A DNA stretch of 44,305 bases from an uncultured Cetobacterium sp. (lineage in GTDB: Bacteria > Fusobacteriota > Fusobacteriia > Fusobacteriales > Fusobacteriaceae), in contig CASFCG010000023.1 in the NCBI GenBank assembly GCA_949293295.1, forward strand, positions 1 through 44,305. The letters run 5' to 3'. Position numbers and translations under genes: made by a program. Position 1 is the first letter of the stretch; the number at the start of each line of letters is the position of its first letter. The notes under the pieces were generated by a model. The model saw nothing but the letters and a program-made list of their open reading frames with translations, did no database searches and had not been told where the DNA came from. Positions 2 to 6,821 of the stretch are shown piece by piece.

Positions 2-514
2 AATGGAGAGGCTTTAAATAGTTTTATTAATATAGCAAATTGGCAGAGGCAAGGAGTTGAATATTTTGTTGAACCATTAATAGCAATAGTGAAGAGGAGT
101 ATTTTTATAAAAGAAAGTTATCTTTTAATGGAGTATTATGAAAATAAAGGGATTAGAACGAAGAAAGATATAGATGAAATTATAGAAATAATAAAGAAAT
201 TACATAAAAAAGGAATATATCATGGGGATTTGAATACATCGAACTTTTTAAAAACTGAAAAGGGGATAAAAATTATTGATACTCAAGCTAAAAGAGAAAA
301 AATATGGTGGTTTAAGAGAGCTTATGATATATTGACTTTAAAAAATGACCTTTTGGTAATAGAATGTGGATATAATGTAGATGAAAACTATAGAGTACCA
401 AGAGGAGTGGGATATCTATTTGCGTATAGTCTAAAAAATATAAAAAAAATAGGTTGGATAAGAAAGATTAGAGGGATAAAAGTCAAATTAAGAGAAAAAG
501 GGTGGAGAATTTGA
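2..514 (+). CDS. LPS core heptose kinase-like protein (5' partial)
   Basis: The frame is open from the left edge, so the gene begins outside the window; the GTG at 89 is only an internal codon. The protein carries a kinase-type catalytic loop, HGDLNTSNF (codons about 75-83), followed by KIIDTQ in the place of the DFG-like metal site. This matches the RfaY/WaaY type of small lipopolysaccharide core kinases, which phosphorylate heptose at the cytoplasmic face. The stop TGA overlaps the ATG of the next gene (ATGA at 514), so the genes are translationally coupled in an LPS operon. The family call is from motif and context; the exact sugar substrate is unknown. Confidence 0.7.
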   Translation, partial: NGEALNSFINIANWQRQGVEYFVEPLIAIVKRSIFIKESYLLMEYYENKGIRTKKDIDEIIEIIKKLHKKGIYHGDLNTSNFLKTEKGIKIIDTQAKREKIWWFKRAYDILTLKNDLLVIECGYNVDENYRVPRGVGYLFAYSLKNIKKIGWIRKIRGIKVKLREKGWRI

Positions 515-1596
515 TGTTTAGAAGATGCAAAAAAATATATATTCAAGAGAGTATAAATTTATATCTAGTAAGAGGAGTATTGAAATTGTTTAAAGGGAGA
601 TTTGCTCCTAAAAAAGATAAAATATTAATAAAAAGTTGTGATGGTCTAGGGGATATTTTAATAAGAAGTAAACTTATGAGTTTGATTGAAAATAAATATG
701 GAAAAGAGAATATAACTGTTTTGGTAAAAGATAATTATGTGCCATTAGGAAATTTTTTAGGATATAATACAATAGGATATTCTCGAAAAGAAAGAAAAAA
801 TTGTTTTTCAAGATTGAAGAAGATGTATATACTTAATAAAATGAGGTTCTCAAAATATATTAATTTGGAATTTTCAAATGATACAGTAGTTGGAAATCTT
901 TTTGCTCCTGAGAGAATTGGAATGATAGATGAGGATTGGAAAGCTAAAAGGAATAATAAATATTATACAAGAGGATTTAAATTATTTGGAGACTATATTC
1001 TATCACAAGTAGCAATTATGGGAAGAGAGATTTTGAACATGGAGATAAAAGAGGAAGACTTAATACCGGATTTAAGAAAAAAGTTTAAAATTGAAGAAAA
1101 GGATATTGTAGTAGCAGTTGGTTCAACTGAGAGAAATAAAGTTTGTTCTCCACTACTAATGGCAAAGTTTTTACAAGTAATAATTGAAAGATATCCTGAA
1201 AAAGATATAATCTTGGTGGGAAATGGAGAATTGCAATACAGATATGCAGAAAGGTTAAAGGAGATTATAAAATTCGATAGAATGCAGAATTTAGTCGATA
1301 AAATATCTTTAGAAGAAGTTTTTAAGATGGTAGCAAAAAGTTTTTTATTTATTGGGTTTGATTCTGGACTATATAATCTTTGTTTTACTTTAAAGAAAAG
1401 GGGAATAATCTTATTTAGAAAAGAAGGTGTGCCATATTATCATAATACCCCATATTTGAAGATATTGACACCTAAAAAGATTAGGAAAGATGTTATTGAT
1501 AAGGAGTATCCAAACTATGAAATAAATAGTATTGAAGAGAATGATTTTAGAAAAGCTTTAGAAGAGGTTAAAAATGAAGAAAAACTTAGTAATTAG
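514..1596 (+). CDS. Glycosyltransferase family 9 (heptosyltransferase-like)
   Basis: A protein of about 360 residues with the two-Rossmann GT-B layout of ADP-heptose:LPS heptosyltransferases. The N-terminal half begins the fold with ILIKSCDGLGDILIRSKL, the C-terminal half has IILVGNGELQYRYAERL and then FIGFDSGLYNL, corresponding to the conserved donor-binding D-S-G region. I chose ATG 514 rather than GTG 502, because GGTGGAG sits at the right distance upstream and the ATG overlaps the preceding stop. It probably adds a heptose or related sugar to the LPS core. The 3' end overlaps the next gene by 23 nt, so the genes form one operon. Confidence 0.75.
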   Translation: MFRRCKKIYIQESINLYLVRGVLKLFKGRFAPKKDKILIKSCDGLGDILIRSKLMSLIENKYGKENITVLVKDNYVPLGNFLGYNTIGYSRKERKNCFSRLKKMYILNKMRFSKYINLEFSNDTVVGNLFAPERIGMIDEDWKAKRNNKYYTRGFKLFGDYILSQVAIMGREILNMEIKEEDLIPDLRKKFKIEEKDIVVAVGSTERNKVCSPLLMAKFLQVIIERYPEKDIILVGNGELQYRYAERLKEIIKFDRMQNLVDKISLEEVFKMVAKSFLFIGFDSGLYNLCFTLKKRGIILFRKEGVPYYHNTPYLKILTPKKIRKDVIDKEYPNYEINSIEENDFRKALEEVKNEEKLSN

Positions 1597-2773
1597 GAGC
1601 GGAAGTTTACGAATGGGAGGACTCGAAAGAGTATTGATTGAAGTAGTACAAAATTTAGATTTAGAAAGATATAATCTCTCGTTAATAATAGAGGATGATG
1701 CAGGGAAAGAGAACATTTTTTTAGGTGATATCCCTAAAGAAGTGGATGTATATTTTATAAAGCCGCAAGAGATGTATAATAGAACTGACTATTATAGGAA
1801 GAGAAAGAAAAATTTTTTTGATAAAATCATGTACAATTACTATATGTTTAAAGAGCATAGATTTGTTTTACCTAAAACGCTTCAAATACTAAAAAAGATA
1901 GAGGAAAAATATGGAGAGATAGATTGTTTTATAGATTATGATTGGGGAGCCAGAAGATATGTGGAAAAATTGAATCTGAAAAAGAGCATAGTATGGCTAC
2001 ATAATTCTATTCCTAACCTTTTGAAGAAAAAAAGTAAAATAAAAAGATTTGGTAAAAATTTAAAAAAATATGATGTAATTGTTGCTATTTGTGATGAGAT
2101 GAAAGCTGAACTAGAAGAGATTTATCCATATCTAAAAGGAAAAGTTAAAAGAGTTTATAATCCATTTAATTTTAAAAGAATTCTCAATTTAAGTGAGGAT
2201 GAAAATGAACTTACTTTAGAAGATAAAAAGTTATTAAAAGATAATTATATTATAGCAATATCGAGATTGGATACAGTTCAAAAAGATTATGATACTTTAA
2301 TTAAGGGATTTAAGAAAGCACTAGATTTAGGAATTAAAGAGAAATTGTATATAGTTGGGGATGGTCCAAATAGGAAAGAGATAGAGGAACTGATTAAAAA
2401 AAATGAAGTAGAAGATAGGGTAATTTTACTTGGAAAGAGAAAAAATCCCTATGTGTGGTTAAAAAGAGCAAAACTTTTTGTACACAGTTCTAAATATGAG
2501 GGATTTGGATTAGTGCTGGTAGAGGCAATGATATGCGGGAAAATGGTAGTTTCTTCGGAGTGTCCGACGGGTCCAAAAGAGATTTTGAAAAATGGAGAGT
2601 GTGGTAATTTATATGAAGTTGGAAATGTTGAAGAATTGGCTTTACTTCTCGATAAAAATTTAAAAAATAAAGAAAATTTAGAGAGTTTTTATGAGGAAAT
2701 AAAGAGAAGGATTAATGAATTTAGAGTAGAAGTTGTAATAGATGAATACTATAAAGTAATAGAAAAAGAGTAA
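1574..2773 (+). CDS. Glycosyltransferase family 4
   Basis: A 399-residue GT-B glycosyltransferase. The N-terminus has SLRMGGLERVL, the usual glycine-rich acceptor-side loop. The C-terminal donor domain has AISRLDTVQKDYDTLI, LYIVGDGPNRKEIEELI and the E-x7-E signature EGFGLVLVEAM. It probably transfers a hexose from a nucleotide sugar to the growing LPS core or O-chain in the cytoplasm. The start ATG lies inside the preceding gene and follows a GAGGT site. The donor and linkage cannot be told from sequence. Confidence 0.8.
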   Translation: MKKNLVIRSGSLRMGGLERVLIEVVQNLDLERYNLSLIIEDDAGKENIFLGDIPKEVDVYFIKPQEMYNRTDYYRKRKKNFFDKIMYNYYMFKEHRFVLPKTLQILKKIEEKYGEIDCFIDYDWGARRYVEKLNLKKSIVWLHNSIPNLLKKKSKIKRFGKNLKKYDVIVAICDEMKAELEEIYPYLKGKVKRVYNPFNFKRILNLSEDENELTLEDKKLLKDNYIIAISRLDTVQKDYDTLIKGFKKALDLGIKEKLYIVGDGPNRKEIEELIKKNEVEDRVILLGKRKNPYVWLKRAKLFVHSSKYEGFGLVLVEAMICGKMVVSSECPTGPKEILKNGECGNLYEVGNVEELALLLDKNLKNKENLESFYEEIKRRINEFRVEVVIDEYYKVIEKE

Positions 2774-2790
2774 ATACAGGAGTGGAAATA

Positions 2791-4032
2791 ATGTTAGCTA
2801 GAGAGAAATTTAGAAAGTTTGAGGAGATATGCCTTTATATTTACGCTGTCTTATTATTTATAAATGATGAGACTATAAAATTTGGAGCAATACTTTTACT
2901 TGTGATATTGATTTTAAGAAAAGTATTGTATAAAGAGGGATTAGAGTGTGGAGATGAGAGGCTAAAAAAATTACTAATATTCCTTGTTATAGGTGGAACA
3001 ATTTGGAATTTTTTCGGTGGAATGGACTATAAACCAGCGAGAAATTATTTAAAATTAATGAGATATATGCCGATAATTTTTTATGTCTATCCATTGATGA
3101 AAAAAGATAAAAATATAATATACAAGTTTTTAATCTCAGCTATAATTGGATATTTTGCACTCTTCGTTAAGATATTTCAACAATATAGTGTTGATTTTGA
3201 TAGGGCAACAGGATTTGAAAGTATCAATATGTCTGGACTTTATGGGGCAATTGTTTCCTGCGTTACAATGGGGTTATTCCTAGGAGAAAAAAATTTTTAT
3301 AAAAAGGTATTTTACCTGATTATTTCATTAAGTGGAATTTTTATAACAATAGCTACAAAAGGAAGAGGACCGCTATTGAGTATTGTATTAGTAGTTATTT
3401 TTTTGATGATAGTATTTCTTTTTTATATGAAAATAAATTTAAGAGAAATTGGAAAAAATATATGTGCACTTTTTATTTTGCTCTTTTTATTTTATAAAAT
3501 AATACCAGAAGAGGATTTAAAGAGATTTACAACTACTTTTAATACAGAAAAAACTGTAGAAAATGCATCTAATGGTCTGAGAATAGAGATGTGGAAAAAT
3601 GCTCTTTGGAGGATAAAGAAAAATCCATTTTTTGGCTCGGGAACAAAGTATGATAAAGAAAAATTATTTAAACAATATGTTGATAATATGCCTGAGGAAA
3701 ATGAGGTTCAAAAACACTATAAAAGAGCGTTAAGAAGATTTGACGATGCTCATTCAATGTATCTTAATGCGATTGTAGATAATGGGACATTTGTAATAGT
3801 TTTATTTTTAGTATGGTTTTATGCACCATTTTTAGCTTTAAAATATGTAAAAGACTCTGAGAATAAAGTATTAATAGTTTCATTACTCGGAGGGATGGTC
3901 TCGTATGAGATACAGGGGTTGTTTTGGCCAATTTGGCGAAATGCACAACAAGCTATATTTTGGGTATTATTTACTTTTATATTAAGTTTAATTTTGATAG
4001 AGAAAAAAGAGTTAAAATCAATAGATTTTTAG
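2791..4032 (+). CDS. O-antigen ligase/polymerase family membrane protein
   Basis: About 413 residues with many hydrophobic segments and the large periplasmic loop typical of the Wzy_C/WaaL superfamily. The loop contains NPFFGSGTKYDKE and DDAHSMYLNAIVDNGT, the conserved histidine-containing region. WaaL joins undecaprenyl-linked O-antigen to lipid A-core on the periplasmic side of the inner membrane; Wzy polymerases look similar, so ligase versus polymerase is not settled. The start is taken at ATG 2791 because AGGAG lies 8 nt upstream; the in-frame GTG at 2782 overlaps that site. Last clear gene of the LPS operon. Confidence 0.72.
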   Translation: MLAREKFRKFEEICLYIYAVLLFINDETIKFGAILLLVILILRKVLYKEGLECGDERLKKLLIFLVIGGTIWNFFGGMDYKPARNYLKLMRYMPIIFYVYPLMKKDKNIIYKFLISAIIGYFALFVKIFQQYSVDFDRATGFESINMSGLYGAIVSCVTMGLFLGEKNFYKKVFYLIISLSGIFITIATKGRGPLLSIVLVVIFLMIVFLFYMKINLREIGKNICALFILLFLFYKIIPEEDLKRFTTTFNTEKTVENASNGLRIEMWKNALWRIKKNPFFGSGTKYDKEKLFKQYVDNMPEENEVQKHYKRALRRFDDAHSMYLNAIVDNGTFVIVLFLVWFYAPFLALKYVKDSENKVLIVSLLGGMVSYEIQGLFWPIWRNAQQAIFWVLFTFILSLILIEKKELKSIDF

Positions 4033-4756: not shown

Positions 4757-4841
4757 AATCTGTGGAGAAGATGAGATAAAATTAATAAAAAGGTTGGAAT
4801 TTAGAATTTTTATAATATTAGAAATAAAATATTGAGATTTA

Positions 4842-4875
4842 CCCTTGCATTATTTATAATGTAAGGGCATTTTTA
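4842..4875 (+). terminator. Terminator-like hairpin upstream of mod
   Basis: Arms 4842-4853 and 4856-4867 pair over 12 bp with one G-U, followed by CATTTTTAT. It would stop transcription coming from the LPS/GNAT side and leaves mod needing its own promoter or readthrough. Confidence 0.6.
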
Positions 4876-4917
4876 TAGAATAAATTTAATGAGGATAAAA
4901 TTTTAAAGGAGTAGAAA

Positions 4918-6821
4918 ATGAAAAAAATACAAAGAACGAGTTTTAGTGTAGTAGAAAACAGTATTGAAAAGATGAAAGAGATATTCCCAGAAGCATTTAT
5001 AGAAGGAAAATTAGACTTTGAAATATTGAAGCAATTATTAGGAGAGTATATAGAGGGGGATAAAGAGAGGTACTCATTTACTTGGAAAGGAAAAACAAAA
5101 GCGAGAAAGATGGCGCAAGATATGACTAATACTACATTGAGACCAGAACAAAATGTTCGAAAGACTACACACACACACACACACATAACATCTATATAGA
5201 GGGAGAGAATTTAGAAGTATTAAAACTTTTGCAAAAATCTTATCACTCAAAGATAAAAATGATATATATAGACCCGCCATATAATACCGGAAATGATTTT
5301 ATTTATAGGGATAATTTTAGAAATAATTTGCAAAACTATTTTGAAATAACAGGTCAATCGGGTAGAGATGGACAGAAATTGAGTACAAACTCAGATTCAA
5401 GTGGAAGATATCATTCTGATTGGTTAAATATGATGTATCCAAGATTAAAATTGGCAAGAAATCTACTAATGGATGATGGAGTTATATTTATTTCAATAGA
5501 TGATAATGAGTTAACTAATTTAAGGAAGATTTGTGATGAGATTTTTGGAGAAGATAATTTTATAGAGCTCTTTTTGTGGAATAAAGGACAGGGAAGTTCA
5601 TTATCTAGATTTACCAGGTCTGATTATGAGTATATTCTTTGTTATGGCAAAAGTAAAAACCGAATTATGTATAAATTTAAAGCGAAGAAAACAGATGAGA
5701 TGCAAGATAGTTCATTGTTAAATAATAGTAATAGATATTCAGAGTTGATTTTTCCTGCTAAAACTATAAATTTTGTAAAAAATAAATCAGGAGTTATTAA
5801 AAGTTTTAAAGAAAATGATTTAGAGTTGATAAATGATATATTTATAGAAAACTATTTTAATAAAAATGAAGTAAGAATTAAGGCTAAGTTTAAGTGGTCG
5901 CAAAAATATTTGGATGATAACTTAAATAAAGGTACAACTATTATATCAAAAACTGATAATTTACGGCTTAGATATATAAAGAAAAAAGAGGAAGATATAA
6001 TAGTTCCGACAAAATCAATCACAGAGAAGAACGAGGTTGGATTTAATTTGAGTGCTTCTTCAGAGTTAAAAAAATTATTAGGAAAAGATATTTTCTCTTA
6101 TCCAAAGCCAGTTTCACTATTGAAGTATATTATAGATATGGTTTGTGATAGGAATGATATAATTCTAGATTTTTTTTCGGGTTCAGCGACAACAGCTCAT
6201 GCAGTAATGCAATTAAATGCAGAGGATGGAGGAGAGAGAAAATATATAATGATACAGGTACCAGAATTGTGTGATGAGAAATCAGAAGCTTATAAAGCAG
6301 GATATAGAAATATATGTGAGATAGGAAAAGAGAGAATAAGGAAAGCTGGAATAAAGATAAGGGAGGATGAAAGTTTATTAATAGAAAATAGGAAAAAGTT
6401 GGATATAGATTTTAAAGTATTTAGGTTAGATAGTTCAAATATAAAGGAATGGGATAATGAAACAAAAAATTTAAAACAGAGTTTATTTGAAATACAAGAG
6501 AGTATAAAAGAGGATAGAACAGAATTGGATTTAATTTATGAGATAATACTGAAGTATGGATTAGAGCTTGATGAAAAAATAGAAAAAAAGGGAGAGATTT
6601 ATTTGATTAAAAGTGGAAGATTATTGATAAATTTAGATAAAAATTTGGATATGAAAATGGTAAATCAGATGTGTGAGGAGTGTAAGAGATTGATGGATAG
6701 GGAGGAAGAAAAGAAAATTAGTGTGATATTGAGAGATAGCTCATTTAAAAATGATACAGATAAAACAAATATAATAAAAAAATTTGAACAAATGGGAATA
6801 AAAGAGATAAAAACTATATAA
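4918..6821 (+). CDS. mod: Type III DNA methyltransferase (Mod), phase-OFF by a (AC)n frameshift
   Basis: The frame from ATG 4918 (AAAGGAG upstream) encodes the usual Mod N-terminus (IFPEAF, FEILKQLLGEY, TLRPEQN) but meets TAG at 5197-5199 just after an AC dinucleotide tract. The rest continues in another frame with NIYIEGENLEVLKLLQKSYH, motif IV DPPYNTG, a central target-recognition region and motif I DFFSGSATTAHAV. Motif IV before motif I marks a beta-class N6-adenine methyltransferase. Losing one AC unit (8) or gaining two (11) joins the frames; with 8 units the product is 633 residues, normal for the family. As read (9 units), only a 93-residue fragment is made. No res gene follows; minC is next. 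It would act as an on/off methylase. Confidence 0.9.
5167..5185 (+). repeat. (AC)9 simple-sequence repeat within mod
   Basis: Nine AC units at 5167-5184 plus an extra A. In frame they encode alternating Thr-His between the N-terminal segment and the NIYIEG block. Dinucleotide tracts in coding DNA are classic slipped-strand phase-variation sites, and each unit changes the frame. Confidence 0.95.

Follow-up and report, generated by a model that had tools for sequence, protein, structure and literature searches.

When the only genome at hand presents a DNA methyltransferase gene as two overlapping reading frames, is the gene broken, or is it switched off? The question is raised by a locus of an uncultured Cetobacterium sp. 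in a window of 44,305 nucleotides (the whole stretch of DNA that was analysed). In our reading, which we consider the probable one, it is a type III mod gene with a frame set by an AC repeat, which would act as a slipped-strand mispairing switch, is presently OFF, and apparently lacks a Res partner.

The frame break in mod

The gene is split at an uninterrupted (AC)9A tract, ACACACACACACACACACA, read from the sequence as (AC)9 at 5167-5184 followed by A5185. This confirms the original prediction that the Mod frame is broken exactly at nine AC units, and its coordinates were correct. The upstream ORF starts at an ATG (4918) behind AAAGGAG and encodes about the first 90 residues of Mod. In the present register, it ends at a TAG (5197-5199) a few codons past the tract, and its product, MKKIQRTSFSVVENS...LRPEQNVRKTTHTHTHITSI*, has 93 aa. 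The rest of Mod is encoded in another frame, that of position 5187, which is open through the tract and as far as 6821; over the tract itself, the two frames overlap. The second out-of-frame register meets an immediate stop (TAA 5186-5188). A single register out of three joins both parts, giving 633 aa at the shorter of the joining lengths, in agreement with the earlier arithmetic that 8 or 11 units restore one frame (633 residues with 8). Outside the tract, the roughly 1.9 kb of mod contain no further stop or frameshift. An internal start for the 3' part was considered and rejected, because the first in-frame candidates (TTG 5229 and ATG 5259) fall within the methyltransferase core.

At the protein level, the tract encodes a Thr-His linker that joins the N-terminal domain to the methyltransferase domain, just ahead of the NIYIEG strand. 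Both the length and the sequence of this linker vary among relatives.

Table 1. Features of the mod locus (positions in the window)
Feature	Position	Strand	Basis
Promoter-like TTGAGA-17-TATAAT, best match upstream of mod	4832..4860	+	consensus scan, 11 of 12
Inverted repeat CCCTTGCATTATTTATAATGTAAGGG, 11-bp, overlaps -10	4842..4867	+	fold z -3.3
Ribosome-binding site AAAGGAG of mod	4905..4911	+	read from sequence
5' part of mod, 93 aa, present (OFF) register	4918..5199	+	MTase_III profile; 63% identity to G027 Mod N-terminus
(AC)9A tract, frame break, presumed switch	5167..5185	+	sequence reading, genome-wide count
3' part of mod: methyltransferase domain, target-recognition region, C-terminal region	5187..6821	+	PF01555, MTase_III and EcoP15I Mod matches
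Catalytic motif IV DPPYNTG	5271..5291	+	translation, alignment
Variable target-recognition region, approximate limits	5562..6056	+	poorly conserved alignment block between motifs IV/VIII and I
SAM-binding motif I DFFSGSATT	6168..6194	+	alignment

The overlap of the frames across the tract would fit a programmed ribosomal frameshift that yields full-length Mod from the present sequence. We regard this as scarcely credible, since ACACACA is not a slippery heptamer and the gene of a relative in another genus of the same family (G027) is plainly in frame. It is also very unlikely that the break is an assembly artefact, with a true or majority tract length that is in frame and a mod gene that is simply ON. 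Repeat counts can be miscalled in the consensus of a draft assembly, but any common read is long enough to span a tract of 19 bases, and at such lengths dinucleotide runs are usually called well. Even if the count were wrong, the tract would stay the presumed switch.

Family and state of preservation

In profile searches, the 3' part of mod matches PF01555 (E 2e-39) and positions 95-621 of 621 of the PADLOC MTase_III profile (PDLC03634, E 3e-172), and the 5' part matches positions 3-95 of the latter (E 5e-21). The halves tile one profile with no other break, which bears out the claim that both flanking parts are intact; the break therefore costs mod nothing except its frame. The methyltransferase motifs were said to be all present, and DPPYNTG (motif IV) and DFFSGSATT (motif I) are indeed found, the latter in the form that is most frequent in the family (61 of 85 sequences). 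The order of motif IV (DPPY), target-recognition region and motif I is that of the beta class. Judged by its sequence, the gene product, Mod, is a beta-class DNA methyltransferase of type III and is predicted to act on N6 of adenine. The class assignment is to a type III-type Mod and does not extend to a type III restriction-modification system, as no cognate res adjoins the gene.

We know of no repeat tract in the Mod protein of EcoP15I. That protein (PDB 4zcf) is of the same family and has, by sequence, the same motif order as the window Mod, but it is part of the active EcoP15I enzyme and has a dissimilar target region.

In an alignment with 84 homologues, the 3' part matches 71 of the 74 near-invariant columns, at which intact relatives score 97.5% on average and 88.5% at the minimum. 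The exceptions, numbered along the 3' part, are positions 7 (D to E), 386 (R to K) and 408 (G to D). With so many of these positions kept, mod is therefore not visibly decaying. This bears on the possibility that the locus is the remnant of a type III restriction-modification system, which has lost res and in which mod is a pseudogene, inactivated recently by slippage in the AC run and bound to decay. The frame is broken in the sole genome at hand, and res is found neither beside mod nor elsewhere in the assembly, as such a remnant would have it. We nevertheless consider this explanation unlikely, in view of the kept near-invariant residues and the otherwise uninterrupted frames, and also because a nine-unit uninterrupted AC tract is reversible and would not be predicted by random decay. 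The loss of res could still mean that the mod locus is on its way out.

Rarity of the tract

From a first-order Markov composition, about 5e-8 occurrences of (AC)9A are expected per genome. No second run of eight or more AC units occurs in the 1.175 Mb assembly; the tract in mod is uninterrupted, lies within an ORF, has a unit that is not a multiple of three, and is far above the chance expectation. Runs of (AC)8 or more occur at four loci in the 96 genomes of the order, of which two are intergenic and two within genes. The two genes, the mod of the window and a type I hsdS of genome G056, are both restriction-modification genes, and both are broken at the tract.

An AC run in the mod linker is found in only one other of the 96 genomes, that of G027. 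The G027 gene has 55% identity to the window mod product over the catalytic part and 63% over the N-terminus, and its AC run is in the same linker. It differs in having (AC)5, an intact frame, and res directly downstream. Five and nine units correspond to different registers, and the G027 register is predicted to be ON. The G027 run, at five units, is short and may not switch. The tract length of the window mod is known from one consensus genome, in a set with one genome per species in which this distant relative differs in count. A scan of genome contigs for sister strains returned matches from other phyla and no sister strain. Viral contigs searched for the tract-plus-motif pattern gave no match, and the AC tract is absent from the corresponding linker in the related viral Mods that were retrieved. 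The plasmid Mods were, without exception, below 60% identity.

The hsdS gene of G056 (G056:C1:159915-159938; L196 1501-1524) is broken by (AC)12 ahead of its third Methylase_S segment and has an HsdR-like ORF just 3' of it. It looks like a second AC-driven phase-variable restriction-modification gene of the same order.

A mod gene without res

The gene that directly follows mod in the window is minC, and the original prediction had been silent on the absence of res beside mod. A PF19778 profile search of the assembly (G000, 82.8% complete) found no type III Res, and the Res of G027, used as a query against the same assembly, had no match. The two strongest PF04851 matches in the assembly are a type I HsdR on contig C17 and a type IV-like DUF3427 helicase-PLD protein on contig C5. 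Both were rejected as the missing Res, the former as a type I and the latter as a type IV enzyme. Given minC next to mod and the empty Res searches of an assembly that is 82.8% complete, the window Mod is likely, though not certainly, a solo Mod.

At the related loci retrieved from the order, a Res-sized ORF is present downstream of mod in ten out of ten cases, and at five of these a type III Res was confirmed by PF19778. In six, res is directly downstream; in G022, G040 and G042, it is one to a few genes away. In G010, which belongs to the genus of the window, the res beside mod is split into two overlapping frames (L043 4892-4931) without an obvious repeat.

The regularity of this arrangement, together with the roughly 83% completeness of the assembly, might suggest that the cognate res falls within a part of the genome that the assembly lacks, and that the switch toggles a restriction-modification system in defence. 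This is also unlikely in our view. The res of the relatives adjoins mod or is a few genes away, whereas here minC follows, and the Res searches of the assembly came out empty although the same family search matched five relatives.

An empty-site search was made at the minC junction. In nine congeners, other genes occupy the flanks upstream of minC, and both mod and the GNAT gene are absent there. The junction varies among the congeners, and therefore nothing firm can be said on insertion.

The genome that carries the split mod also encodes a homologue of type IV methyl-directed restriction enzymes (C5), in addition to the type I HsdR (C17). The type IV homologue could conflict with a switching methylase.

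The proposed switch and its precedents

A switchable mod gene, which we prefer to the alternatives above, would operate as follows. During replication, slipped-strand mispairing would change the number of AC units in either direction. Full-length Mod (ON) would result from one of the three registers, and translation in the other two would soon terminate, a few codons from the tract, so that the OFF state would leave a fragment of 93 aa. As a gain or loss of two residues should be tolerated in the linker, the ON state would be compatible with several tract lengths. Because no res adjoins mod, the most likely effect of the ON state would be a methylation mark with no restriction to match it, and the OFF state would remove this mark. 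Methylation without restriction would fit a regulatory or an anti-restriction role.

We infer slipped-strand mispairing from the anatomy of the locus and from the tested precedents mmyCImod and ModS. The earlier proposal that a type III methyltransferase is phase-variable and OFF here gains, at the sequence level, from the intact halves, the unique tract at the exact break, the length-tolerant linker, and the in-frame run of G027. Its further suggestion, that cells of the population differ in methylation and in the expression of several genes, goes a step beyond these findings. Slippage, where it occurs, may lead to mixed populations, and methylation in ON cells may alter gene expression in the manner of a phasevarion.

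In a more specific version, Mod would be a stand-alone phase-variable enzyme that has lost its restriction partner and serves as a pure epigenetic switch in a small-genome congener. The ON state would perhaps clash with the type IV enzyme on contig 5, and would survive only if that enzyme ignores the mark or is silent. We find so detailed a scenario improbable. From 1.175 Mb and a completeness of 82.8%, a genome of about 1.4 Mb is extrapolated, which is small in comparison with most congeners; those that are near-complete have 2.1-3.1 Mb. The low GC, the genes present and the set of genomes point to the Fusobacteriales.

A close precedent is mmyCImod of Mycoplasma mycoides subsp. capri, which is OFF at 12 and ON at 10 AG units (PMC3498834). 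In it, too, a dinucleotide tract lies in frame within a type III mod, the OFF stop comes just after the tract, and the other registers are intact. However, its repeat is AG and not AC, and its res is directly downstream and overlaps mod. Moreover, two tract lengths and the activity of the ON clone have been demonstrated for mmyCImod (PMC3498834). The products of phase-variable mod genes in known phasevarions, ModS of Streptococcus suis (PMC8125046), ModA, ModH and ModM, share with the window gene an ORF repeat near the 5' end, a central variable target region, and ON/OFF control by frame. They differ in the repeat unit; length variation, methylation and a regulon have been demonstrated for them, and no res was found in the window genome. 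According to a figure quoted in PMC7394358, 17.4% of the type III mod genes surveyed in REBASE have repeats of this kind.

To the known phase-variable mod genes, the locus adds an AC-dinucleotide example that apparently has no res. In the literature searched, no phasevarion has been described in the lineage of the window. A Mod without Res would be a clean case in which to ask whether such switches serve gene regulation rather than phage defence. The locus also illustrates that a single reference assembly can show a switchable gene as broken, though it may be intact in sister cells.

Control region and surroundings

The promoter-like site upstream of mod (Table 1) is weak evidence, because shuffled sequence would be expected to give just as many such sites in the region. 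The inverted repeat that overlaps its -10 element may be a putative operator or a leader hairpin. Just upstream of mod (89-4032), the window contains kinase-like, heptosyltransferase-like, GT4 and O-antigen-ligase-like (Wzy_C) genes, which form a surface-polysaccharide cluster.

Other repeats in the Mod family

Repeat tracts recur in the Mod family and are not confined to one place in the gene, as other repeats are carried by G029, Methanobrevibacter curvatus and a Bacteroidales MAG. The assembly of G029 broke at a poly-G/C run in a related mod, so that the gene is shared by two contigs (L047 9034-9110; L070 1-28). One contig end has 77 C, which probably represent an artefact of the assembly on top of a real repeat. 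The Bacteroidales MAG (L090 5805) has two tandem mod genes, the second of which is frame-broken at G11 near its start. In M. curvatus (NZ_LWMV01000222.1, L134), a single contig has three mod paralogues, at 3309, 6413 and 10608, with (GA)n at the same place in 13, 4 and 7 units, each frame-broken there as read so far. These counts are all 1 mod 3, which is odd under random switching.
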